NCBI RefSeq assembly: GCF_022899935.1
Contig: NZ_JALJCJ010000001.1
Span: 186,001 to 250,000, forward strand
DNA length: 64,000 bases
Direction of reading: 5' to 3'
Source: Shinella curvata
GTDB lineage: Bacteria; Pseudomonadota; Alphaproteobacteria; Rhizobiales; Rhizobiaceae
Notes under the pieces: model-generated
The model's database searches: none
Seen by the model: the letters and a program-made list of their open reading frames with translations, nothing else
What the model was told of the DNA's origin: nothing
In this document: piece by piece, positions 13,891 to 39,979 of the stretch
Numbering within the stretch: the stretch's first letter is position 1
Layout of the letters: every line of letters begins with the position of its first letter
Translations under genes and position numbers: made by a program

Positions 13891-13963
13891 TATGGTAGCA
13901 AAGCGGTAGCAAACGCCGTTTTTGGGAAATCTCGAAGCCAAAGATTTCTTAATCATATCAATC

Positions 13964-14002
13964 ATGGAAGAGTGTCCGAGTGGTTTAAGGAACCGGTCTT
14001 GA
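13964..14002 (+). repeat. Right attachment repeat (attR) within tRNA-Ser
   Basis: Identical over 39 bases to 8552-8590. It runs from two bases before the tRNA to the anticodon loop, so integration replaced the 5' half of the gene and its upstream region with element DNA while keeping the tRNA whole. Confidence 0.75.
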
Positions 14003-14055
14003 AAACCGGCGTGCGGGAGACCGTACCGTGGGTTCGAATCCCACCTCTTCCGCCA
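13966..14055 (+). tRNA. tRNA-Ser(UGA)
   Basis: A 90-base gene with encoded CCA. The acceptor stem is GGAAGAG/CTCTTCC, the anticodon stem CCGGT/ACCGG encloses loop CTTGAAA with anticodon TGA, a long variable arm marks it as serine-type, and the T loop is GGTTCGAATCC. Its upstream region is element-derived, so its promoter must lie in or near the integrase remnant. Confidence 0.95.
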
Positions 14056-14167
14056 ATTTTCGCTCCGCCCATTGGAACTTGTCTCCAATCCGGGTTTGGC
14101 TATGGCGAAAACGTTCTTTCGGAAAAAAACAACACGACCTTGATTTCACCATATTGTCCTCCCATAT

Positions 14168-14317
14168 AACGCTCATCGGTAATTGCTTGAGAGCGCTGGA
14201 AGGCCTCTGCCGCTCGCAATGGCCGCCATCACCTGATGCCCTTGACCACGGATGTACTGGCACTGGTGAAAAGGTGATGATGAGGAAGGTCGGTGCGTTT
14301 TCGCCCCGGCCTTTTTT
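14168..14317 (+). ncRNA. Possible small RNA ending at an orphan terminator
   Basis: No gene is seen in 14056-14397, yet a strong terminator ends at 14317. A TATAAC box lies at about 14164-14169, with a TTGATT-like box about 19 bases upstream, so a transcript of roughly 140-150 bases is possible. The alternative is that the terminator belongs to the tRNA-Ser transcript. No known RNA family was recognised. Confidence 0.25.
14286..14317 (+). terminator. Strong Rho-independent terminator without a preceding CDS
   Basis: A 12-position stem (AAGGTCGGTGCG with CGCCCCGGCCTT; one wobble, one mismatch) and loop TTTT are followed by four or more T. The nearest upstream plus-strand gene is tRNA-Ser, 230 bases away. 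Confidence 0.7.
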
Positions 14318-14397
14318 GTTGTCTGAACTCTCTTTCAGCGTCTGGAACAATCGTCGCGCCCTTCCTGTTTCACACCAGGCATCGAAGGAGGCTGGCC

Positions 14398-27483: not shown

Positions 27484-27590
27484 CTAGAGCATTTCCGGTG
27501 AACTCTGGTTCACCGGAAATGCTCTAGGATTTTGTTTTTACCGCATTATCCGACGCCGAAGCAAAGTCGCTTCGACTGGAAATGCTCTAG
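27484..27590. repeat. RIME-like palindromic intergenic repeat
   Basis: A 107-base element. Its first part is a perfect 20-bp inverted repeat (27484-27503 with 27508-27527, starting CTAGAGCATTTCCGG) around a 4-base loop. The second part holds a smaller palindrome, CGAAGC/GCTTCG (27557-27574), and ends with the same GGAAATGCTCTAG. The size and two-palindrome form resemble the RIME1 elements described in rhizobia. Its final CTAG supplies the stop codon of ccdA. It lies between two minus-strand genes and could form a stable RNA hairpin. Confidence 0.75.
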
Positions 27591-28336
27591 CCGATTTGTG
27601 AGAGAATGGGAAACGTTTGCTGGAACCAGATGGCGACGGCGCTGATATAGCCGAAAATGAAGGCGAGACCGGTGAGGATCAACAGAACGCCCATGATCTT
27701 TTCCACCGCGCCGAGATGGCGGCGAAAACGCACGAGGAAGCGCATGAAGGCTCCGGAGAAACCAGCCGCGATCCAGAACGGAACGGCAAGCCCGAGCGAA
27801 TAGACCGCCAGCAGGATCGCCCCGTCGCCCACCGTTTCGCGCGCCGCGGCAATTCCCAGAATGGCGCCCAGCACCGGTCCGATACACGGCGTCCAGCCAA
27901 AGGCGAAGGCAAGCCCCATGATATAGGCGCCCGACGCCGTCGCCGGTTTGCCGCCACCCTGGAACCGCGCTTCACGCGCAAAAAGCCCGATGCGCAGAAG
28001 CCCGAGAAAATGCAGGCCCATCAGGATGATGATGACGCCACCGATCTGGGCGAGCAGGTCGAGATGCCGCCGCAGCACCATGCCGATGGTCGAAGCCCCT
28101 GCCCCGAGCGCCACGAAGACGGTCGCAAAGCCCAGCGTGAAGAAGAATGCCGCAAGCAGCACCGCGCCGCGCGTATCCCGCCGCACCGCCGCCGCTTCCC
28201 CGCCGCGGAACTGATCCACCGAGATGCCGGCCATGTAACAGAGATAGGGAGGCACGAGCGGCAGCACGCAGGGCGACAGGAACGAGAGCGCACCCGCCAG
28301 AAGCGCGCTCCAAAGGGAAATATCGGCAATCGACAA
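27587..28336 (-). CDS. ccdA: Cytochrome c biogenesis / thiol-disulfide membrane protein CcdA
   Basis: A 249-aa inner-membrane protein with six spans that carries electrons from cytoplasmic thioredoxin to periplasmic thiols, needed to keep apocytochrome c cysteines reduced. The redox Cys pair is visible in LSPCVLPLVPP (near residue 23) and GWTPCIGP (near 150). The start is TTG with GGAG at good spacing. The stop TAG lies in the last bases of the RIME-like repeat. It lies about 7 kb from the tetraheme cytochrome gene, whose maturation would need this function. Confidence 0.9.
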   Translation of the reverse strand: MSIADISLWSALLAGALSFLSPCVLPLVPPYLCYMAGISVDQFRGGEAAAVRRDTRGAVLLAAFFFTLGFATVFVALGAGASTIGMVLRRHLDLLAQIGGVIIILMGLHFLGLLRIGLFAREARFQGGGKPATASGAYIMGLAFAFGWTPCIGPVLGAILGIAAARETVGDGAILLAVYSLGLAVPFWIAAGFSGAFMRFLVRFRRHLGAVEKIMGVLLILTGLAFIFGYISAVAIWFQQTFPILSQIG

Positions 28337-28555: not shown

Positions 28556-28631
28556 TGGTGAGCGCGCAGGGATTCGAACCCTGGACCTACTGATTAAAAG
28601 TCAGTTGCTCTACCGGCTGAGCTACGCGCTC
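28556..28631 (-). tRNA. tRNA-Lys(UUU)
   Basis: A 76-base gene with encoded CCA. The acceptor stem is GAGCGCG/CGCGCTC, the anticodon stem CTGA/TCAG region encloses TTT, and the T loop reads GGTTCGAATCC. It lies between ccdA and the caspase cluster, all on the minus strand. Confidence 0.95.
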
Positions 28632-28779: not shown

Positions 28780-30348
28780 TCAGTAAACCGTGTACTTCAA
28801 GAGCCCCAGCGACCAGTTCACGCTGCGGTTTTCCGTATCCCGCGTCCAGGTCTGTTTCAGCGTTCCGGCGATGTCGGCGATGGTGGTGCGCGCGTCGAGT
28901 TCCTTCTGCAGGCCGTAGTCATTCGGCGCGACCTTGGTCAAATCGACATCATCGGCGACGACGATGGCGACCAGAACATTTTCGCTCGGGCCAGCGGCTT
29001 CGAAATCGAAGCCGTAATAGTCGTCCGGGATTGTAAGCGGGCTGTTGGCGGCAAGCGGGGTGATCTTCTTGGCCGCCTCGTTCGGGAAAATCTGCGTCGC
29101 CTTCCCGTCCTTGTCGACGTCGTAGAGGATGAGGTGGCCGCCGGTGCTGCTCGTCACGGTGATGCGGAAGGAATCGCCGGTATTCAGATGATCGGACGAG
29201 AGCGAGACATGGACGTCACCGCTCTGCGGCTTGCCGAGGATATCGCTGACGGCATCGACCGGGTCCGCCGCGACATAGGCCGTCTGCTGGGTGTTTTCCA
29301 CTTTGACCTTTTCGACCTTACCGTAGTCCGCACCCTGTTGCTGCGTATCACCGCTCGTCTGCGGCTGTTCATCCTGCTGGGTCTGCTGCAGGCCGGTCGT
29401 ATCGGCCGCCGTCGGCGTCACGGCGGCGGCACCGAGCAGCGCGTAGTTCACCTCGAGCTGCGGATCGAGGCCCTGGCATTGTTTCTGGCTCGCACAATAG
29501 GTCTGCGACTGTTTCTTCACATATTCCAGAAGCTCGGCGTTCGAGACGATGCCGTTGCCGTTGCTGTCGGCGGCGGAAACCTCGTGGCCGTTGACATAGG
29601 AGAGCGTGAAGACGCCATGGCGCTCTTCCGGCGGCAGGCGCGTATCGTCCCAGGCGACCTGATAGGACGAAGCGGCGCTCCAGGCCTCTATACCGTTCTG
29701 CTTGACGATCTCCGGTTTGTCGACAACCGCCACATCGATGCGCAGGCCGCGCATTTTCACCTCTTCCACCGGCTTGGCGAACGGTCGCGGCAGGAAGCGC
29801 GCGCTTTCCATGGCGTCGGCGACCTGGGTGGAGAGAGAGCGTGAAATCGTGCCGGAATGGCAGGCATCGATGACGATCGAGACGGCACGGTCCTTCAATT
29901 TCTCGAGCATCGCATCGATTTCGTCGTCGAGAATAACGTTCGTCCAATCGCCATCGCCGGCGGCGATATCGTAAGTCGAAAGCGCTTCGTCGAGACCGTC
30001 CTCTTCGTCACCACTCGCATCCTTCACCTGTAGGCCATGGCCGGAGAAGTAGAAATAGACCCGGTCGCCCGGCTGCGTACCCTGGATCAGCCATTCATCG
30101 ATATTGGCGAGGATGGCAGCGCGACTCGCATCCTTGTCGAGCAGAACGCGAATCGAATCGGCCGCATATCCCTGCTTTTCCCTGAGGAGCTTCTCGATGA
30201 GCGGAACGTCGTTCTTCGGTCCTTCGAGGAACATCTTTTCCGGCAGCGACGCATAGGTGCCGATACCGACGAGCAGCGCCCGGTCGGCCGCCGCGGCGGC
30301 CGAAAACACGGAGAGCGAGAGGACCAGCGCAGCGGCGTAGCGGATCAT
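28780..30348 (-). CDS. Exported caspase-like protease with EF-hand loop and DUF4384-like domain (caspase B)
   Basis: A 522-aa protein with a signal peptide of about 21 residues (MIRYAAALVLSLSVFSAAAA). The C14 caspase-like domain covers about 23-180: the catalytic His is H104 in YFSGHGLQ, the Cys is C163 in VIDACHSGT, and the acidic GDEEDGLDEAL segment is typical of metacaspase-type enzymes. An EF-hand loop at 261-272 (DSNGNGIVSNAE) has all usual ligand positions. A Gln-rich linker (about 318-345) leads to a DUF4384-like domain (about 360-475). It is the last gene of the cluster and overlaps caspase A by one base (TGATG), so both should be made together. Its target is unknown. Confidence 0.85.
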   Translation of the reverse strand: MIRYAAALVLSLSVFSAAAAADRALLVGIGTYASLPEKMFLEGPKNDVPLIEKLLREKQGYAADSIRVLLDKDASRAAILANIDEWLIQGTQPGDRVYFYFSGHGLQVKDASGDEEDGLDEALSTYDIAAGDGDWTNVILDDEIDAMLEKLKDRAVSIVIDACHSGTISRSLSTQVADAMESARFLPRPFAKPVEEVKMRGLRIDVAVVDKPEIVKQNGIEAWSAASSYQVAWDDTRLPPEERHGVFTLSYVNGHEVSAADSNGNGIVSNAELLEYVKKQSQTYCASQKQCQGLDPQLEVNYALLGAAAVTPTAADTTGLQQTQQDEQPQTSGDTQQQGADYGKVEKVKVENTQQTAYVAADPVDAVSDILGKPQSGDVHVSLSSDHLNTGDSFRITVTSSTGGHLILYDVDKDGKATQIFPNEAAKKITPLAANSPLTIPDDYYGFDFEAAGPSENVLVAIVVADDVDLTKVAPNDYGLQKELDARTTIADIAGTLKQTWTRDTENRSVNWSLGLLKYTVY

Positions 30349-31916
30349 CAGAGTGTTTCCCGCGTATAGAGAGGTTGAATGGCCACGCTAGCCTCCTTGC
30401 CGTCGAGCCGCGTCAAGAGCGCCTGCAGCAACGTGGCAGCCGTCACGTTCTTGTCGGAGAGTACGGCTCCGATCGCATCGACCGGTTCACCTGTCCAGAT
30501 GGTGATGAGATGGTCGGCACCGAAAGGTTTGACGATCTCGACATCCGTCAACTTGAATTCGGAACTGCTCGTTCCCGCCGCCTGCATGTCGAGGAACTGT
30601 ACCTCGCCGGTATTGGCGAGATTGAAGACCAGCATGTTCGGGTAGCGGCCGGGCGGTGCATCGAACCGCAGCCGTTGGCCGGCGGCATAGATATCCTTGA
30701 CGGGCGCCAGTGAGACCGTGCCGGGATTCTGGCTTGCCATGGCTTTGAGGAAATCCAGCAGGACATATTTGTCGACGACCGGCTGGATACGGTCCGCGCC
30801 GACATTCTCCGCCGCTACATCACCGTTCGGCGTGTAGAACGTGCCGGTCGCCACGTCCCAGCGAAACGGCGTTCCGGTGCCCTCGGCATCCGTCGGCCGC
30901 GCCGCCTCGCCATCGATCTGCAGGGCGATCTTGCCTGTCCAACCAAGCTCCTTGACGGTCTTGATGGTTTTCGGGATCGTACCGGCGTCATTCGTCGTTG
31001 TCGCCGTATCACCAGTGGCGGCCGGAATGCCGCGGGTCAGCGTCACCACGACCTCGCTCTCCGAGCGGGCCACCTGGGGCATGAAGTTCGGAACCTGCAA
31101 CGCCTCCGAGCGGTTCTTCACATTGCTGAAGATGTAGTCTTCGAGTTCGATTCGCGTGATGATGCCGTTGCCGTCGCGGTCGGCGCTGCCCTCAACGGCG
31201 CGGGCAAAGCTCCAGCTCAGCGCCCCGCGCGGCTCGCCGTCGATGATGACCTCCGGCGTCGGCTGGCTTTCCAGCGAGGCTGCAAGCACCGTCACCTGCT
31301 TGAAATTGATCTCCTTGAGGGCCGCGCCAGCAACGGCCTCCTGCGAAGGCGGCGCCAGCTTGACCGTCACCGCCGGCGCCAGTCGGCTCTTGCCCTTGAT
31401 CGAGCGGCTCATGCCGCCGGAAAAGCAGCTGTCGGAGACGAAGAGCACGTGCACGCCCTTGCCTTCCGCCTCGGCAAACCAGGCGTTCATCTCGTTGTCG
31501 ACGATGATCTCCTTCGACGTTTCCTCGTAACGGTTGCGATCGAAGCCCGGAAGCTGAAGGAATTCGTCAAGCCCGTCGGCTTCGTCACCGGCAATCAGTT
31601 CAGGCATCTGCGCGCCGTGTCCTGCATAGGTGAAAATGATCGTGTCGCCGGATACCGCCTCGGCCACCATGTCGGTCCAGGCTTTGCGCAAATCGTCCTT
31701 GCGAGCCTCTGCATTGGTGAATTTCTTCACCTTGAAACCGGCCGCACTCATCGACGCATAGACGTCCTCGGCGTCGCGCACGGCGCCATCGAGACTGACA
31801 TCGTTCGGATACTGGTCCACGCCCACGACGAGCGCATAGGTCTGCGCCGCAAAGGCCGGCAGGGGAAAGGCAGCCGAGAGCGTAAGCGCCAGCAGACGGG
31901 GCAGCAGCGTTCTCAT
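30348..31916 (-). CDS. Exported caspase-like protease with EF-hand loop (caspase A)
   Basis: A 522-aa protein with signal peptide MRTLLPRLLALTLSAAFPLP ending AFA-A. The C14 domain covers about 25-170, with H100 in TYAGHGAQ, C164 in VSDSCFSGG, and the acidic segment GDEADGLDEF. An EF-hand loop at 246-257 (DRDGNGIITRIE) is canonical. The C-terminal half (about 380-500) has the DUF4384-like pattern: IYAAGQRLRFDAPPGRYPNM, then PFGADHLITIW. It shares its domain order with caspase B, but the sequences differ widely, so the duplication is old or the genes were recruited separately. It overlaps the OmpA-family gene by four bases. Confidence 0.85.
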   Translation of the reverse strand: MRTLLPRLLALTLSAAFPLPAFAAQTYALVVGVDQYPNDVSLDGAVRDAEDVYASMSAAGFKVKKFTNAEARKDDLRKAWTDMVAEAVSGDTIIFTYAGHGAQMPELIAGDEADGLDEFLQLPGFDRNRYEETSKEIIVDNEMNAWFAEAEGKGVHVLFVSDSCFSGGMSRSIKGKSRLAPAVTVKLAPPSQEAVAGAALKEINFKQVTVLAASLESQPTPEVIIDGEPRGALSWSFARAVEGSADRDGNGIITRIELEDYIFSNVKNRSEALQVPNFMPQVARSESEVVVTLTRGIPAATGDTATTTNDAGTIPKTIKTVKELGWTGKIALQIDGEAARPTDAEGTGTPFRWDVATGTFYTPNGDVAAENVGADRIQPVVDKYVLLDFLKAMASQNPGTVSLAPVKDIYAAGQRLRFDAPPGRYPNMLVFNLANTGEVQFLDMQAAGTSSSEFKLTDVEIVKPFGADHLITIWTGEPVDAIGAVLSDKNVTAATLLQALLTRLDGKEASVAIQPLYTRETL

Positions 31917-32824
31917 TGCACGTCCACTTCAACGCGGCGGTTCAACTGGTTCAGTGTCTCCGTGTCATAGGCGCTGGCGTCATCCGGCTTGAAAGGTTCG
32001 TCCTCGCCCTTGCCGATCGTGGTGATCGTGCCGGCATAACCGGTATCGTGGAGATAGGCCTTCAGCGTATCGGCGCGCGCGAGCGAAAGCGCGTAATTGG
32101 CATCCGCCCCGCCCACCGGATCCGTGTGGCCGATCAGCTTGATGGCGGACGGCTTCACGGCCTTCAGGCACTCGGCGAGATCCTTGGCCGCCTCGACACC
32201 CTCGGGCGTGAAATCGGCCGTGCCGAAGACATAACGAACCGGCGTCGATTTCTTCTTTATCGCCACGCCGCGGAAGGAGACCTTGCAGCCGCCGCGCATC
32301 GCGAGCTTGACAGGGCGCGGCGCGGCAAGGCGCATCTCGCCGGCAAGCCGGTCGAGACGCAGGATGTACTGCTCGTCCGGCGCCATCCAATCCGGTGTCA
32401 ACGTCGTGTTCGAGCCGTCCTCCAGAGCGATCTGGTAGAGTTTCGCGGCTTCCTCGTAGTCCTTGCGCTCGCGGGCAAGATCGCCCAGCGCATCAAAGAC
32501 CTGCCAGGGGCCGCCATACTTCTTCTGAAGCATCTCCAGGTCGGCGCGGTGATCCACCAGCTTGCCGCCGTTGCCGACGTCGGTTGCGATGCGATTGAAG
32601 CTGGAAAGCGCCGCGACACGGCCGACGAGCGTACGCTCATTGGCGCTGCAATTGGCGGTGCCGGCGGTTTCGGCGATCGACTGGGCCTTCTGTTCGTCGC
32701 CTGCGTTGAACGCCTCGATGACACCGGTGAAGGCATCACAGGCCGCCGCGGCCGGGGCCACACCGGCCATTACGAAGAGTGTCGCTGCCAGAGATCGCAT
32801 CAGCATTGTCGGTTCAGCCCTCAT
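31913..32824 (-). CDS. OmpA-family peptidoglycan-binding protein
   Basis: A 303-aa exported protein. The signal peptide ends near residue 28 (APAAAAC; that Cys is not in a lipobox context I trust). A helical N-terminal half has repeat-like segments (ALGDLARERKDYEEAAKLYQ) that resemble one TPR. The C-terminal OmpA domain (about 190-303) has GHTDPVGGADANYALSLARA and a terminal NRRVEVDVQ, with the Asp and Arg that bind diaminopimelate. No beta-barrel is present, so it should tether partners to the cell wall. It follows the cytochrome gene by 48 bases and overlaps caspase A by four, placing the anchor in the same transcript. Confidence 0.85.
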   Translation of the reverse strand: MRAEPTMLMRSLAATLFVMAGVAPAAAACDAFTGVIEAFNAGDEQKAQSIAETAGTANCSANERTLVGRVAALSSFNRIATDVGNGGKLVDHRADLEMLQKKYGGPWQVFDALGDLARERKDYEEAAKLYQIALEDGSNTTLTPDWMAPDEQYILRLDRLAGEMRLAAPRPVKLAMRGGCKVSFRGVAIKKKSTPVRYVFGTADFTPEGVEAAKDLAECLKAVKPSAIKLIGHTDPVGGADANYALSLARADTLKAYLHDTGYAGTITTIGKGEDEPFKPDDASAYDTETLNQLNRRVEVDVQ

Positions 32825-32872
32825 GTCTTCTCGAAACGAATAGGCAGGGGCCTGTGGCCCCTGCCCTTGTTG

Positions 32873-35800
32873 TCATTTGATTTCGAACGTCACCATCTGG
32901 AGACCGCTCGCACCGTTGTCCTGCTCGGCCTGCCTGGCGAGGTTGACTGCCAGTCCACGGGTTGGCGGCAGCTTGGAGGTCGCCACCAGCTGCCTGGCCT
33001 TTTCCGCCGTCATCTTCTGGTCGCCAAGTCCGCCGATGCGGCAGAAGGCGATCATCGTTTCACCGGGTGACGGCGAATCGAAGGTCAGGTTACCAGAACC
33101 CGGCTGCGGAATAAGGCGGCTTTCGCCAGCATTCAGCGTCGTATTGCCGATCATCACGTCGGGGATGATTTCGACCGTGCCGGTATCCTCGACATACATC
33201 ACCTGCAGCTCGCAGCTATGGTTCGTGCTGAGTTCAAAGCTGAGGTAATCGCCGACCTTTGCCGCGGTGCTCGGCACACGCAATGCCAGCTTCACCTTCT
33301 CGGCCTGCGCCTTGTCGTCCTGCTTGTAGGCCGGCACGACATAGGCGGTATCAGCCTGCCCGGCGTATTGGTCCGTATTGGCCACCTGGCCCTGTGACTG
33401 TTGCTGGCTTGCGGCGGCATCACCGGTATTGGCGGCGACGTCGGGGTTGACCCCACGCTTCAGCGGTTCGAGTTGCACGAGCGGTTGCAACATGAAGGCA
33501 TACTGTTCCTCTACCTCGGTGCGCGGGATCGTAGCGCCGGCTTCGAGCGTCGCAACCCAGTCGAGGCCGATGCGCAGGGCATTGACGTCGGTGAGGCGAC
33601 GGATGTCGGACGAAAACTCTTCCGGCGTCATGTCGAACTCGGCCGCAAGCTGTTCGAAGTTCAGCTCGTCCTCGTACTGGTCAGCGAAGTAGGTAAAGAT
33701 CTCGGCGCCGCCGGGAGCCTTCAGGCTGGTCTTGCCGCCGCCAGCCGTTGCTTCGGTAATGCCGAGACGATCGAGTGCGCCGACGAACCGGTCAGTGTCA
33801 CGCTTGTAAACCTCGTTCAGCTCCTCCTGCGGCACATAGACGGCGAGAAGCTCGTCCTGCTGGTCCTTGGAGAAAAGCGTGGACGTCTCGATATGCTCGC
33901 GCAATTGGTCCCGCTTGGAGAGAATGCCGTCGAAATGGCAGTCGAAGCAGGAGCGAGCGTTGATGATCTCGACCCCCTTGCCGATTGGCCGCTTGCGGAA
34001 GGAGACGATCGCCGTCGGGCCGATGTCGAGCTGGTCGCCCTTGTTGGTCGACAGATAGTAACCCTGCATGCCGTTCGGAAGCGAGAAAATCATTTCGCCG
34101 CCGTCGTGCTCGAAAGGTTCCAGACCCGCCTTCAGCTTCACGCCATCAGGCCCCGCCGGGAAGCGTTTCAGCACCTGCCTGCCGACGTCGCCCGCGAAGT
34201 CATAGGACTTCCAGTAGTAGCCGCCGAAAGGCATATCGTGGCGTTCCAGCATACGGTTGTGGTCGGAGACGCCGGACGAGCCGTCGGCAAAGCCGGCGCG
34301 GACGATACGGCGGCGTTCGATGTTCTGATCGACCGGCACACCGAAGCGCTTTTCCAGTTCGGCGATGTTGGTCGGCAGCTTCATGAGGCGGTTATAGACC
34401 TTCGGCCGGGCGCCGTTGCTCATGAACCAGTCGACACGCATGATCGGCAGTTGGCTCTGCGTCGCCTTGGCAAGGGCGTGCAGTTGCGCATTGCTCGTCG
34501 GGTCGACGCCGTAGAAGTACTCGTTGATCAGGAAGTCGTAGTCTTCCTGGTTCCATTCGAGATCACGCAGATCGACACGAACGAGCAGACCGTCGGAACC
34601 GTCCACTTCCTCGGGCAGGACAAGCTCAGGCCCGTAGGAAAGCGAGTTCAAGAGTTTCTTGAAGCCGCCGGCCAGAACCTTCATGCGCTTCAGGAAGGTG
34701 TCGTGCGTCTCGCAGCTCATCATGCCGTTATATTGGTCGCGATAGCTGAAATAGCGCATGAAGGGTTGGTCGTGTTCGTCGACCTTGGAGATGTCCTGCA
34801 AGGCGAGTTCGACGAAATCGAGATATTTCAGCATGGGGCGCGAGCGCTTGACCTGCGTGGCCGAAACCGCCGTGGGAATGGCCGCCTGGTTGAGCGAGTT
34901 GATCCAGTCGGCCAGGCCCTGCACCTCGGCATCGGCCGGGCGCTTTCCGAGCGGCATGCGGCCGCTGGTGACGCTGGTGTAGAGCAGCGACTTGGACGCA
35001 TCGCCGGGGGTCACGAAGGCCGGGTTCGCGGCAATCGACGCAAGATCGCCGGATGGGAACGAGCCCTGCGAGCTCTCGCCAGGGCCATGGCAGTTGCGGC
35101 AATACTTGCCGATGAAGGCATCGGCCGCGGAAGCGAGCTCCGCATTGCCGCCGCCAACGCTGAGCGCGCTCTCGGCGGTCGCCTCGCTGCAGACGGGCGC
35201 CGTGCTGGTTTCGACCGGCGTCACCTTCACCTCGCGGTCGGAAAGGAACGCGTACATGGCCTGCTTGTCCTCGTCCGACAGAGCCGAAAGGCCCTGCGCG
35301 ATGCGGCGCATGACGGGATCGGCGAGCGGCGAGCCGGAGAGCTTCTTGCCCTCCTCGATCAGGCCCTTTGTGAAGACTTCATGCGAGGCAAGACCGGCCA
35401 TGCGCGCCTTGGTGATATCGGGCGCGACCGCGCCGGTCAGCCCTTTCTCGCCCTCATAGGCACGGGCGAGGTCGAGCCCGTAGGTCGTGGTGCGCGGGGT
35501 GTGGCAATCGCCGCAGCCGCCGACATTTTCCACGAGGTAGCGGCCGCGCTCCATCTGCGTTTCCTCGCGCGGCTGATAGGCCTGTACGGTGAAATGGCTG
35601 CGCTTCCAGAGCGTGATCGTGGTTTGGCGGCTGAAGGGGAAGGCGATCTCGTGTTCCTTCGACGCGGCATCCGTCTGCGGCAGCGTCTCGATATAGGCTT
35701 TGATATCGAGCACGTCTTCCGGCTTCATGCCGCCATAGGAGGTGTAGGGCATGACCGGATACAAATTGTTGCCATCCTTCTTGAGGCCGACCATGACGGC

Positions 35801-36127
35801 GTTCAGGAAGTCAGCGTTGGACCAGCCGCCGATGCCGTTCGGATGGGCCGAAATGTTCGGCGCGAAGAACTTGCCGATCGCCGTCTGCATTTCCATGCCG
35901 CCGGAAAGCAGCTCCATATTGTCGCCCGAGCCATGGCAAGCGCCGCAACCGGCCGCGCCGAACATGATTTTGCCATTGTCGGCATTCGCCTGGTAGGTGC
36001 CGTAGGCATCCGCCGCGAACTGGTCGATGGCGAACGCACTGGCGGGACAGAACAGCGCCATGGTCAGACCGAGCGCCGCAGCAAGGCGGGAAACCGGTCG
36101 CAGAAGTGATGTCTTGAACACGCGCAT
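32873..36127 (-). CDS. Large exported tetraheme c-type cytochrome with DUF4384-like C-terminus
   Basis: A 1084-aa protein starting at the ATG preceded by GAAGGGAAC (31 codons inside the longest frame), with a signal peptide ending AFA-I near residue 33. Four CXXCH heme motifs are visible: C61-H65, C205-H209, C343-H347 and C727-H731. The first three sit in cytochrome c-like domains. The fourth (SCFDCHFDG) lies in a large region I do not recognise (about 420-890). A Gln-rich linker near 905-925 leads to a DUF4384-like domain (about 940-1035). The architecture resembles no standard oxidase or peroxidase. It is 119 bases after the NOX-like gene and is the probable periplasmic electron acceptor or donor in the cluster. 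Confidence 0.85.
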   Translation of the reverse strand: MRVFKTSLLRPVSRLAAALGLTMALFCPASAFAIDQFAADAYGTYQANADNGKIMFGAAGCGACHGSGDNMELLSGGMEMQTAIGKFFAPNISAHPNGIGGWSNADFLNAVMVGLKKDGNNLYPVMPYTSYGGMKPEDVLDIKAYIETLPQTDAASKEHEIAFPFSRQTTITLWKRSHFTVQAYQPREETQMERGRYLVENVGGCGDCHTPRTTTYGLDLARAYEGEKGLTGAVAPDITKARMAGLASHEVFTKGLIEEGKKLSGSPLADPVMRRIAQGLSALSDEDKQAMYAFLSDREVKVTPVETSTAPVCSEATAESALSVGGGNAELASAADAFIGKYCRNCHGPGESSQGSFPSGDLASIAANPAFVTPGDASKSLLYTSVTSGRMPLGKRPADAEVQGLADWINSLNQAAIPTAVSATQVKRSRPMLKYLDFVELALQDISKVDEHDQPFMRYFSYRDQYNGMMSCETHDTFLKRMKVLAGGFKKLLNSLSYGPELVLPEEVDGSDGLLVRVDLRDLEWNQEDYDFLINEYFYGVDPTSNAQLHALAKATQSQLPIMRVDWFMSNGARPKVYNRLMKLPTNIAELEKRFGVPVDQNIERRRIVRAGFADGSSGVSDHNRMLERHDMPFGGYYWKSYDFAGDVGRQVLKRFPAGPDGVKLKAGLEPFEHDGGEMIFSLPNGMQGYYLSTNKGDQLDIGPTAIVSFRKRPIGKGVEIINARSCFDCHFDGILSKRDQLREHIETSTLFSKDQQDELLAVYVPQEELNEVYKRDTDRFVGALDRLGITEATAGGGKTSLKAPGGAEIFTYFADQYEDELNFEQLAAEFDMTPEEFSSDIRRLTDVNALRIGLDWVATLEAGATIPRTEVEEQYAFMLQPLVQLEPLKRGVNPDVAANTGDAAASQQQSQGQVANTDQYAGQADTAYVVPAYKQDDKAQAEKVKLALRVPSTAAKVGDYLSFELSTNHSCELQVMYVEDTGTVEIIPDVMIGNTTLNAGESRLIPQPGSGNLTFDSPSPGETMIAFCRIGGLGDQKMTAEKARQLVATSKLPPTRGLAVNLARQAEQDNGASGLQMVTFEIK

Positions 36128-36246
36128 GGCTTGTTCCCTTCGCTCCAAGAGGCCGGTGGACCGGCTGGAAATTTCAAGCATTCCCGCTTTTCTTAGAAAC
36201 GCGGAAGCACCCGATTTCATTCACGCAATTCCGTACGCGCCCGGCC

Positions 36247-37506
36247 CTATCGAAACTCGAAACGCTCGAACTCGACGCGCCGTGGCGCCTTTCCGAGCTC
36301 TCTCAATCCCTTTTCGATGGCGAGCCGCAACGGCGGCGGGCCGCAGAACCACAGGTCGGCTTCGGCCGGGTTCATGCTGGTGCCGGAGACGAGCTTCGAC
36401 GCATCGAGGCGTCCGTCGGTCGCCGAGTTGTGCAGCACGAAGCTGAAATTCCCGAGTTTTTCGGCCTGGGCGCGAAACGTCTCGAGGCCGATCGCCTCGG
36501 CGCTGTCGCGCACACAGTAGACCATGTGGATATCCTGCCCCTCGTCGCCTTTCAGCCGACTCGCCATGGCAAGGAACGGTGTGACGCCGATGCCGCCGGC
36601 AAGCCAGATCTGCTTCTTGCCGCCGCGCTTGTGATTGAAATGGCCGTAGCCGCCCTCGAGCGTCAGCGCGTCGCCAACCGCCACGCTCTCGCGCAGCGCC
36701 TTCGTATAATCGCCCAGCGGCTTGATGGCGAAGCGAACCGAACCATCGTCCTCGATGCCGGCGATCGTGAAGGGATGCGGCTCGCGCAGGCCCGGCTTAT
36801 TGACCCGGAAGAAACCGAACTGGCCGGGCATCGCCCGAAGCTTGCGGTTGATAGGCTTTGCCGAAATGATGGTCGCGCCATCATGCCGCTCGACATTCAC
36901 CACCTCGTAGCGACGGGTGCGCAGCCACGGCAGGAGCTGCGTATAGGCGTAGCTCACGATACCGATCAAAGCGAAAATATTGAGGTAGGTTGCCAGAAAC
37001 GCCGTGCCGTCATAGGGCCGCTTGATGAACATCTGGTGGAAGGCGATCAGCACGAAGAGCAGGCCGATGAACCGATGCGTAATGCGCCAGTATTGGTAGG
37101 GAACCTGAAAACGCGTTTTCGGGATGACCTTCACAAGGCTCAGAACCAACAGGAAGACGAAGCCGTAGAAGGCCCATTCCCCCATCGTCTTGGCGAGCAG
37201 ATTGAGGCCGCTCGTGACCGACAGGCCCTGGAAATCCGGCGCGATGAAGTAGTGGAAGAGGATAAGACAGAGCACCGCGATGCCGATCTTGCGGTGGAAC
37301 TGGTAAATGCGGTCGAGCCCGCCGAACAGCCTTTCGACGAAAGGCGGGCGCGTCGCCATGAATTGCGCGATCGCCATCGCGACGAAGGCCATGGACGAAG
37401 CCACGAGAGAAAAGGTGGTGCCCGCATTGGTATGGCTGACGGCCGGTACGGCCAGCAGGCCGGCAAAGACAATCAGAAGTGTCGCGACGATGGAACCCGC
37501 AGTCAA
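36247..37506 (-). CDS. NOX-like flavocytochrome b (ferric reductase transmembrane plus FNR domains)
   Basis: A 419-aa inner-membrane electron carrier. The N-terminal six-span domain has two bis-His pairs: H71/H85 (14 apart) and H144/H157 (13 apart), the same spacing as in NADPH oxidases. A cytoplasmic FAD domain with HPFTIAG and an NAD(P) domain with GGIGVTPFLAM and FCGPP near the end complete the form. Such proteins take electrons from cytoplasmic NAD(P)H across the membrane to oxygen, iron or a protein. The start is TTG with a GGGGG site. It is the first gene of the caspase cluster. Confidence 0.88.
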   Translation of the reverse strand: MTAGSIVATLLIVFAGLLAVPAVSHTNAGTTFSLVASSMAFVAMAIAQFMATRPPFVERLFGGLDRIYQFHRKIGIAVLCLILFHYFIAPDFQGLSVTSGLNLLAKTMGEWAFYGFVFLLVLSLVKVIPKTRFQVPYQYWRITHRFIGLLFVLIAFHQMFIKRPYDGTAFLATYLNIFALIGIVSYAYTQLLPWLRTRRYEVVNVERHDGATIISAKPINRKLRAMPGQFGFFRVNKPGLREPHPFTIAGIEDDGSVRFAIKPLGDYTKALRESVAVGDALTLEGGYGHFNHKRGGKKQIWLAGGIGVTPFLAMASRLKGDEGQDIHMVYCVRDSAEAIGLETFRAQAEKLGNFSFVLHNSATDGRLDASKLVSGTSMNPAEADLWFCGPPPLRLAIEKGLRELGKAPRRVEFERFEFR

Positions 37507-37741: not shown

Positions 37742-38008
37742 TCAGGGATTGAGCCGCTGCAACTCCTCCTTCGCTTTCGCCGCGAGCGGATGATCCGGGT
37801 GCCTTGCGATGAAGAGTTCAAGCGCCTCCCGCGTTCCCCGGCCTTTAAGGGCCTCATATTCGGATTTGACAGCCTCTTCCGGATCGCCCGGCTTCTGCAT
37901 GACCACCCTCACGATCGTCGGCTGCCGCACAGACGCAACCCCGGAATCGGACAGCCCCGAACCATATGCGCACAATGCACAACAAACTGCGAATAGCATA
38001 GCGATCAC
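37742..38008 (-). CDS. Small exported protein with a TPR-like C-terminus
   Basis: An 88-aa product with a hydrophobic N-terminus (IAMLFAVCCALCAYGSG). It could be a signal peptide or, with Cys in this place, a lipoprotein, although no clean lipobox is seen. The C-terminal half (EALELFIARHPDHPLAAKAK) resembles one tetratricopeptide unit. The start is GTG at 38008 or ATG at 37999; neither has a strong ribosome-binding site. It lies 235 bases upstream of the NOX-like gene on the same strand, so it could head that operon. Confidence 0.55.
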   Translation of the reverse strand: MIAMLFAVCCALCAYGSGLSDSGVASVRQPTIVRVVMQKPGDPEEAVKSEYEALKGRGTREALELFIARHPDHPLAAKAKEELQRLNP

Positions 38009-38116: not shown

Positions 38117-39979
38117 ATGTCGGGTTCAGCAACGCCTACCAAAACGATCAACGCAACTGGTTCGATCTTTGTGGATTCAGTCCTTGTCGGCAAGGGCTGG
38201 AGCGTGTCCACCGTTACCTACGCCTTTCCCACAGTGTTGACGGACTACAGCTATACGAAATACGACAGCGGCTTCAACAGCATTTCCTACACGCAGAAGA
38301 ACGCCGCCCTGTTCGCGATGGAGACATCCTTTGGCGGGAAAGCGAATGACGGCTTTTCCGTGGAGGGCTTCACCAATCTCAACTTCACAGTGGGAAATTC
38401 GACCAACGCGACATTTCGCTTTGCGCAATCCAGCGTCCCCGCCACGGCGGAGGTTGCCGATTTTCCCGGTAACGTTATCAACACGGACAGCGCGGACGAT
38501 GGCGATATCTGGTTCGGAACCGCCGCCGCGGGCACGATCTACGATCTGCGCAAGCCGGTGGCCGGCAACTACGCCTGGCACACGCTGATCCACGAGCTCG
38601 GGCACGCCCTGGGCCTCAAGCACGCGCAGGAAAATGTGGTCTATGGCAAGATGCCGGATGCCACCAACAGCATCGAATTCACGGTCATGAGCTACCTGAG
38701 CTACATCGGCGACACAGGCAACTCCTACTCTTATGAAGAATTCGGCGCGCCGCAGACGTTCATGATGGCCGATATCGCGGCGCTCCAGCACATGTACGGT
38801 GCGGACTATTCCACCAATTCCGGTGCCACCGTCTACAAATGGACACCGGGAAGCGGCGATACGCTCGTCAATGGCGAACTCGCCATCGCCCCCGGCGAAA
38901 ATCGCATCTTCGCGACGCTCTGGGATGGCGGCGGCAATGATACCTACGATCTCAGCGCCTATTCAAACGGCGTCAAGGTCGATCTCCGCCCAGGGGAGCA
39001 CTCCGTCTTCGACGCTACGCAGCTCGCCTATCTCGGCGGCGGGCCGAATGGCGGCTTCGCGCGAGGCAACATTTTCAATGCGCTGCTTTTCAAGGGTGAT
39101 CTTCGCTCGCTCATCGAAAACGCCACGGGTGGCAGCGGCAATGATACGATCGTCGGCAACCAGGGCGCCAACATCCTGTCCGGTAATGCAGGCGCCGACC
39201 AACTCGACGGCGGCAGCGGCAACGACACGCTGATCGGCGGCGCCGGCGCCGACAAGCTCATCGGCGGCGCGGGCGCAGATACCGCGTCGTACTCCACGGC
39301 TGCGGCGGGTGTCGTCGCCAACCTCATCAAGCCTTCCGACAACGTCGGCAACGCGGCGGGTGACACCTATTCCTCCATCGAAAACCTGGTGGGAGGCAAT
39401 TTCGTGGACAAGCTGGTCGGCAATACGGGCAACAACAACCTGCAAGGCGGCGCCGGTGCGGATACGCTCGACGGCGGAGCCGGCAATGATACGTTGAACG
39501 GCGGCACGGGCGGCGACAAGCTGATCGGTGCTGCCGGCGTGGATACGGCGAGCTACCTGCTGGCGACGGCGGGGGTAACGGCAAGCCTGGCAAGTGCCGC
39601 AATCAATACCGGCGAGGCGATCGGCGACACCTATTCCTTGATCGAAAACCTCCTCGGCAGCGCCTTCGGCGACAAGCTGACAGGCAATACCGGCGCAAAC
39701 AGGATCAATGGCTACAAGGGCAACGATACCCTGACCGGGGGAAGCGCGGCCGACGTCTTCGCCTTTGCGAGCGGCTACGGACGGGATACGATCACCGACT
39801 TCCAGAACAATGTCGATGACATCGATCTGCAGTCCTACAACTTTTCGTCGGCCAGTTCCGTTCTCAGCAAGGCCGTACAGGTCGGCGCCGACCTCGAAAT
39901 CCGCCTGTCCAGCGCTGACGTCGTCATCCTGAAGCTCTTCAACAAGGCAAGTCTTGTCGCGACCGACCTCATTCTCTGA
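38117..39979 (+). CDS. Serralysin-like RTX metalloprotease (peptidase M10)
   Basis: A 620-aa type I secretion substrate. The zinc site is [11 protein letters not shown] (H159, E160, H163, H169) and the Met-turn is VMSYLSY near 191, as in serralysins. RTX nonapeptides begin near 340 (GGSGNDTI) and recur to about 545. Two ~110-residue blocks (about 370-545) repeat the order DTASY, GDTYS-IENL, GDKL/VDKL, NTG. The C-terminus ([13 protein letters not shown], then hydrophobic tail) is the expected secretion signal. GGGGGG precedes the ATG. Its ABC exporter is not in the window. It is divergent from the small exported protein, with 108 bases between them. Confidence 0.9.

Follow-up and report, generated by a model that had tools for sequence, protein, structure and literature searches.

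The window analysed here, a 64,000-nucleotide stretch of DNA whose source genome was identified as Shinella by its nearest relatives, carries on its minus strand (28780-37506) five genes that we tentatively interpret as encoding a periplasmic protease complex that is anchored to peptidoglycan and takes a redox input. From gene 1 to gene 5, the products are a flavocytochrome of the NOX type, a cytochrome with four hemes, a protein with an OmpA domain and two caspase homologues (Table 1). The open reading frames (ORFs) and their coordinates were reproduced from the sequence, together with the intergenic spacing of 119, 48, -4 and -1 bp (119 bp from 36247 to the cytochrome ATG at 36127) that an earlier note, made from the letters alone, had reported; the gene identities it had given were recovered by Pfam. 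As that note had supposed, no described system with a NOX protein, a multiheme cytochrome and OmpA-linked exported caspases was found in the open-access literature. As far as this literature was searched, the system as a whole is undescribed; it is composed of known families and one heme domain that appears to be new, and its function is predicted.

Table 1. Features of the cluster and its immediate surroundings, in window coordinates.
Feature	Description	Coordinates	Strand	Evidence
Gene 1	NOX-type flavocytochrome, P0001, 419 aa	36247..37506	-	Pfam, PDB match, neighbourhood
Gene 2	Tetraheme cytochrome, predicted exported, P0002 from Met32	32873..36127	-	Pfam, CxxCH motifs
Hairpin	11 bp, inside the 48-bp gap of genes 2 and 3	32842..32866	-	Covariation in Shinella
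Gene 3	OmpA-domain protein, predicted exported, P0003, 303 aa, TPR-like N-terminal part	31913..32824	-	Pfam
Gene 4	Caspase A, P0004, 522 aa, dyad His100/Cys164, EF-hand-like loop, tail with remote likeness to DUF4384	30348..31916	-	Pfam, tree, HHalign
Gene 5	Caspase B, P0005, 522 aa, intact dyad, EF-hand-like loop, C-terminal DUF4384	28780..30348	-	Pfam, tree
Candidate sixth gene	85-aa ORF with an exported-looking product, upstream of gene 1; uncertain member	37742..37999	-	Translation, tblastn

The product of gene 1, whose start (a TTG at 37506) is uncertain, matched Ferric_reduct with 44.9 bits, FAD_binding_8 with 27.2 bits and NAD_binding_1 with 27.4 bits, the latter two both over 22. Its best PDB match was SpNOX of Streptococcus pneumoniae (8qt6, E 5e-39). 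The two proteins aligned over nearly the whole length, including the FAD and NADPH domains and both heme histidine pairs of the ferric-reductase membrane domain, which corresponds to two hemes b. The difference from SpNOX is that gene 1 adjoins a tetraheme cytochrome, a plausible electron acceptor. This linkage recurred wherever close homologues were found: NOX homologues with at least 45% identity occurred in six genomes, the source genome among them, and each adjoined the fused cytochrome; 13 further genomes held NOX homologues with less than 40% identity only. According to the part of the SpNOX study that was available, SpNOX makes superoxide, and under argon it reduced cytochrome c directly with lower efficiency, with the authors' caveat that the assay was done in detergent and that FAD was also exposed; the in-cell acceptors of bacterial NOX were left open there, and other acceptors were suggested (PMC5676040). 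In G113, one of the 13 genomes with distant homologues only, a NOX homologue of 32% identity was seen ∼8 kb past the OmpA gene of the module on the same contig (G113:C155:34695-35897).

Gene 2 (residues numbered on the 1115-aa ORF) matched Cytochrom_C and Cytochrome_CBB3 in Pfam, and its translation holds four CxxCH motifs (CGACH, CGDCH, CRNCH and CFDCH). Residues ∼59-421 resemble the triheme cytochrome c subunit of fructose/alcohol dehydrogenases (7w2j, 8gy2). Unlike that subunit, gene 2 adds a heme domain at residues ∼462-935, here termed CORE, with the CFDCH motif at 758-762, followed by a C-terminal DUF4384-type domain; no Pfam domain of a dehydrogenase partner was found in any of the five cluster proteins. 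The CxxCH of CORE was invariant across 36 aligned rows. The CORE model had a pLDDT of 91, and the domain gave no sequence match over any cut-off in Pfam and other profile searches and no clear fold match, with best E values of 1.3 and 0.56 by Foldseek against the PDB and of 0.24 against a viral fold library. Judged by these searches, CORE is a heme domain of an undescribed sequence family. Cytochrome P460/c'-beta proteins were considered as relatives, as they gave the top two second-look structural matches, with weak Z scores, over a range that includes the CxxCH. The best HHalign result comprised 15 columns at the CxxCH (28.6%, E 6e-4) against 27 proteins of 30 PF16694 loci from 49/150 genomes with a match; the diheme control reached 12.2% (E 0.0024) and 20 column-shuffled controls gave E 0.25-0.70. 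CORE has no Pfam match, and the profile comparison was confined to the heme motif; we keep this likeness as a hint.

Gene 3 matched OmpA with 42.7 bits (cut-off 27.2), and all Pfam matches of its TPR-like part were below cut-off. Both caspases matched Peptidase_C14 (53.1 bits for gene 4 and 66.2 bits for gene 5) with an intact His-Cys dyad. As regards a p10 domain, which would mark a type I metacaspase as opposed to an orthocaspase, the match covered positions 3-195 of the 233-position profile in caspase B and 3-137 in caspase A. Genome-wide there are seven C14 matches, two of which are the caspases of the cluster. The N-termini of genes 2-5 look, by eye, like Sec signals, which agrees with the export proposed for these four products in the earlier note. 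A signal-peptide rule applied to frames outside Shinella was positive in 26/27 OmpA, 29/34 caspase and 22/42 cytochrome frames; it was also positive in 89/400 control frames, which makes it weak in general and unconvincing for the cytochromes.

In a tree of 79 caspase rows, one branch (99/98) set off the 41 A rows, another (94/83) the 25 B rows, and 13 other caspases stood apart (100/100). The tree was built on the caspase domains, while the A and B labels came from the C-terminal domains; two caspases (L129, L136) with the label 'B?' fell in clade A and were counted as A. Shinella was represented by the window and L049, and L060 (16389), L082, L122 (3259), L141 (19011), L144 and five own-genome paralogues were omitted. 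Caspases A and B are two ancient paralogous classes. The dyad was kept in 41/43 caspase A rows, the Cys being lost in L130 and both residues in L144. Among caspase B rows (one duplicate gene removed) it was kept in 19/27; the rows without it are L067, those of one genus (L077, L078, L080, L083, L145), and L125 and L126, which have Gln for His and keep the Cys. Intact relatives nest between the losers; therefore, at least three independent losses occurred in B, if none was regained. That one member stays active and the other is free to lose activity suggests a heteromer. Elsewhere, four extra caspases of another class lie around the module of G368 (L074:1917-6072 and 13960-14394), and a second class A caspase of G087 lies away from the module (L138, G087:C3), with no OmpA gene or second caspase in that stretch.

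An acidic residue before the catalytic Cys of caspase-fold proteases goes, as a rule, with cleavage after Arg or Lys. Both caspases carry an acidic residue two positions before the Cys, and cleavage after Arg/Lys would therefore be expected of them. The calcium control of proteolysis proposed in the earlier note is a weak point of that proposal. EF-hand-like loops were present in 27/27 module caspase rows and 0/15 other rows, but in only 26/44 rows of a second set, and the EF-hand Pfam match of gene 5 (19.2 bits) was below its cut-off of 25.4.

The cytochrome and the caspases have a common type of C-terminal domain. In gene 5, DUF4384 scored 49.6 bits against a cut-off of 27. HHalign paired the tails of the cytochrome and caspase B at 98% (E 6e-14), so that homology of the gene 2 tail to DUF4384 is likely despite a missed Pfam cut-off. 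The tail of caspase A is remote, with 95% and 89% (E 7e-8 and 2e-6) against these two tails. Of all sequence features, this shared tail is the best reason for thinking that the cytochrome and the caspases may meet. Ten other DUF4384 proteins were scanned near caspase A, and they can replace the cytochrome; they include a trypsin-DUF4384 protein (L136), a protein with DUF4384, Sel1 and PG_binding_1 (L120) and tandem DUF4384 proteins, and in L125 and L126 DUF4384 and OmpA stand within one frame. The class A caspase at L136:5196-10281 is adjoined by both trypsin-DUF4384 and tandem DUF4384 proteins, recalling the trypsin/pseudo-orthocaspase proteins described in the accessible part of PMC6426788.

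Scanning contigs with the cytochrome gave 12 distinct loci, each of them in Shinella, and the five genes were in order in 12/12. Since the cytochrome served as the probe, these loci show that its four partner genes remain beside it, not that the cluster is in every Shinella, and the scan reaches close relatives only. In five of the 12, with starts set by homology, the spacing was 87-119, 32-184, -4 to 146 and -1 bp (the last in all five). All five genes had dN/dS values of 0.04-0.19 in five Shinella comparisons, and in L043 caspase A is split across two frames, perhaps by a draft error. The hairpin in the gap of genes 2 and 3 was compared in 13 Shinella sequences (12 distinct), where 96.2% of cells were paired and four pairs had changed on both sides. 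It has no good T run, and it is possibly a point of mRNA processing or attenuation.

Purifying selection on the five genes bears on a role in cell death or rival killing, in which NOX superoxide in the periplasm and caspases destroying envelope proteins would act under stress or attack. The superoxide production of SpNOX fits this role, extracellular metacaspases have been suggested to act in death or fratricide (in the portion of PMC3501461 consulted), and caspase/pseudocaspase pairs would suit tight control. A steady role accords no less well with the selection found in Shinella, and the PADLOC output was limited to a generic caspase profile and to weak matches of the OmpA protein to ZorB. 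We consider death or killing very unlikely, and a defence-system reading was rejected on the same PADLOC output. The likeness of cytochrome c and caspases to apoptosis, drawn in the earlier note, is retained as an analogy only.

Beyond Shinella, the main survey covered 297 genomes of the order. The cytochrome was matched in 207/297 at E 1e-20, mostly through the diheme part, while CORE was present in 32 genomes of 18 genera among the matches listed (own included). CORE was also found in 3/398 genomes of the phylum and 2/385 of the class, own included; these searches score few candidates per genome, and remote members may be missed. One genome of another family (G197, L050) has the whole five-gene order at 39-49% identity. 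The synteny across relatives that the earlier note asked for is thus present in the 12 Shinella loci and in this genome. Other arrangements were NOX-cytochrome-OmpA-caspase A (L060, L074), core-OmpA-A-B (L065, L066), diheme-A-B-core-OmpA (L067, L077, L078, L080, L083), the core followed ∼5 kb away by B, A and OmpA (L081), and OmpA-core-B with diheme-A in one genome (L085/L141). A Neorhizobium plasmid carries caspase-OmpA-NOX-cytochrome, the caspase being of another class. Flanking genes vary between families, by eye. The gene set is modular: throughout the order, OmpA recurs together with caspases A and B, whether the cytochrome is present or not. As separate observations, the interval between core and caspases in L081 (12086-15464) holds a Crp/Fnr-like regulator (by eye), a CHASE2-cyclase and a DUF928 protein, and cytochrome c' genes (PF01322) adjoin the diheme cytochrome at L077:15578-16045, L080:15576-16001 and L064:11063-11548.

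The co-occurrence of these parts was then compared with chance. A caspase-fold gene lay within ∼10 kb of the core in 18/26 core genomes against 0.92 expected (by genus, 12/18 against 0.55), an expectation derived from Pfam C14 counts that may miss diverged caspases, while the observed count includes caspases of other classes and the dyad-less one of L082. The 26 genomes comprise 24 of the order together with G368 and G598; left out were the own genome, five genomes of genus g37 without a nearby caspase (G110, G141, G192, G214, G234) and two with fragmented contigs (G144, G150), and adding the seven non-own genomes gives 18/33. Caspase A (profile A4, E 1e-45) was found in 39/297 genomes. Among the matches listed, core and caspase A were together in 16/297 genomes against 4.2 expected (p 5e-8) and in 10 genera against 4.1 expected (p 0.001); these p values are rough, as the genomes are related and not independent. 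The 39 caspase A loci consist of 38 of the order and one of the class, a partial match of G048 being left out. Within 5 kb of these genes there was a same-strand OmpA gene in 25, a second caspase (profile E <1e-38) in 23, a core or diheme cytochrome in 16 and another DUF4384 protein in nine; OmpA and a second caspase were both present in 17/39. The 5-kb limit misses the OmpA genes of L067, L077, L078, L080 and L083, which are slightly further off. Taken together, synteny, co-occurrence and selection indicate that the genes belong together.

In the mechanism that we propose, the five products would form one complex, in which electrons from NAD(P)H would enter the NOX-type protein (FAD, two hemes b), move on to the tetraheme cytochrome through its first hemes and reach the fourth heme, in CORE. 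The DUF4384-type tails, present in the cytochrome and caspase B and in remote form in caspase A, would dock this input to the protease and relay the heme state, while the OmpA protein would tether the complex to the cell wall. The working protease would be caspase A; caspase B would act as a further protease in Shinella, and in several other lineages its part would be that of a pseudoprotease partner. The state of the heme, either its oxidation or a bound small ligand, would switch caspase A. We regard this redox-informed, wall-anchored protease complex as a possible reading, short of a probable one, and the interpretation offered in the earlier note is partly supported.

Several observations weigh against this complex. 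The profile searches that the earlier note had proposed gave Ferric_reduct, cytochrome, OmpA, C14 and, in gene 5, DUF4384; in gene 2, DUF4384 reached 22 bits, below the cut-off of 27, and gene 4 gave no DUF4384 Pfam match up to E 0.1; DUF4384 as a docking part is a guess from homology. The core was within 5 kb of caspase A in 11/39 loci and in none of the other 28, NOX in only 4/39, and nine of the 17 loci with both OmpA and a second caspase lack any core match (G005, G010, G023, G079, G114, G155, G156, G203, G288). Conversely, genus g37 has the cytochrome in 8/8 genomes and OmpA nearby in seven, with no caspase in the stretch examined, and seven loci (L063, L064, L075, L076, L079, L084, L086) have the core without a caspase in the stretch, some of them at contig ends. 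In six loci (L051-L053, L068, L069, L073) the caspase near the core belongs to another class and could lie there by coincidence, and the one near the core of L082 lacks the dyad. In four genomes without a caspase beside the core (G036, G037, G144, G150), a class A caspase was present on another contig.

Two alternatives were considered. The first holds that NOX-cytochrome and OmpA-caspase A-caspase B are independent units that merely lie side by side in Shinella. Each is found without the other in many genomes, and the conserved hairpin sits at the border of genes 2 and 3; against this, the units join in different gene orders, in several families and above chance, and their proteins have a common C-terminal domain type. 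We consider this alternative distinctly unlikely. The second gives the redox part the leading role. NOX or diheme cytochromes would feed a reductase of the periplasm or a heme enzyme that handles gas or peroxide, and the caspases would mature or recycle that enzyme instead of responding to it. This we regard as rather unlikely.

The protease complex can also be placed in a broader and more speculative frame, to which we give a limited chance of being right. A modular periplasmic caspase platform would comprise a wall-held OmpA protein, caspase A and caspase or pseudocaspase B, and interchangeable DUF4384-tagged partners would signal when to cut; these would be the trypsin, Sel1/peptidoglycan-binding or tandem DUF4384 proteins, or, as in the present cluster, a tetraheme cytochrome that NOX would drive and that would have a new heme fold. 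In Shinella, envelope proteolysis would be coupled to NAD(P)H in the cytoplasm and to a ligand of the heme such as NO or oxygen, and bacterial NOX would gain a physiological acceptor.

In MsrPQ, a membrane heme protein feeds a periplasmic partner, a molybdopterin protein. The present cluster is alike in combining a membrane heme protein with a periplasmic partner, and it differs in that the partner is a multiheme cytochrome. Closer to the caspases, a 2012 survey, as far as its text was available, counted 14 metacaspase operons that include OmpA and noted alphaproteobacterial operons with several metacaspases; the OmpA-domain neighbour and the multiple caspases are shared with the cluster (PMC3501461). 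In the main text covered, the words 'cytochrome', 'heme' and 'electron' had 0 occurrences, and neither classes A/B nor a shared tail were met there. The sections consulted on metacaspases/orthocaspases, including alphaproteobacterial pseudo-orthocaspases with DUF4384, describe the same p20, His-Cys dyad, acidic residue two before the Cys, C-terminal DUF4384 and pseudoenzyme relatives (PMC6426788). Unlike these, the cluster has a pair of predicted exported caspases from two ancient classes, tied to OmpA, a cytochrome and NOX. The VMAP/iSTAND ternary conflict systems are characterized, in the part covered, by a MoxR or STAND NTPase with a vWA component (PMC7159879), and no such domain was found in the five proteins.

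If the proposal is true, the cluster would provide a redox switch that spans the membrane and governs caspase-type proteolysis beyond the cytoplasm; in this it would differ from the caspase systems driven by NTPases that are outlined in the available part of PMC7159879. It would further offer candidate answers to three questions, namely the acceptor of bacterial NOX, the role of DUF4384 and the purpose of exported alphaproteobacterial caspase homologues and pseudocaspases. The cluster also adds a heme domain of a sequence family that appears undescribed. With regard to NO, a Bradyrhizobium caspase family gene, bll3611, is listed in the NO-responsive NnrR regulon in the portion of PMC6710368 seen; it could not be tied to class A or B. 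FNR/NnrR-type boxes gave 24 matches in the window (16.1 expected), with 0 between 37506 and 38150 near the operon start.

The surroundings of the cluster were also described. The small ORF upstream of gene 1 has no Pfam match, and it was matched by tblastn in 8/12 Shinella loci. The same eight carry the divergent gene at 38117-39979 (+), matched there over its first 232 residues, whose translation reads as a HEXXH-type zinc protease motif with RTX-like repeats. Directly downstream of the cluster lie tRNA-Lys (28556-28631) and a CcdA-like gene (by eye; 27587-28336, -). A horizontal island at this tRNA-Lys was considered and rejected, as among five Shinella loci scanned the tRNA was inverted in L044 and not seen in L040. 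The CcdA-like gene was found in 6/12 Shinella loci within the flanks examined.

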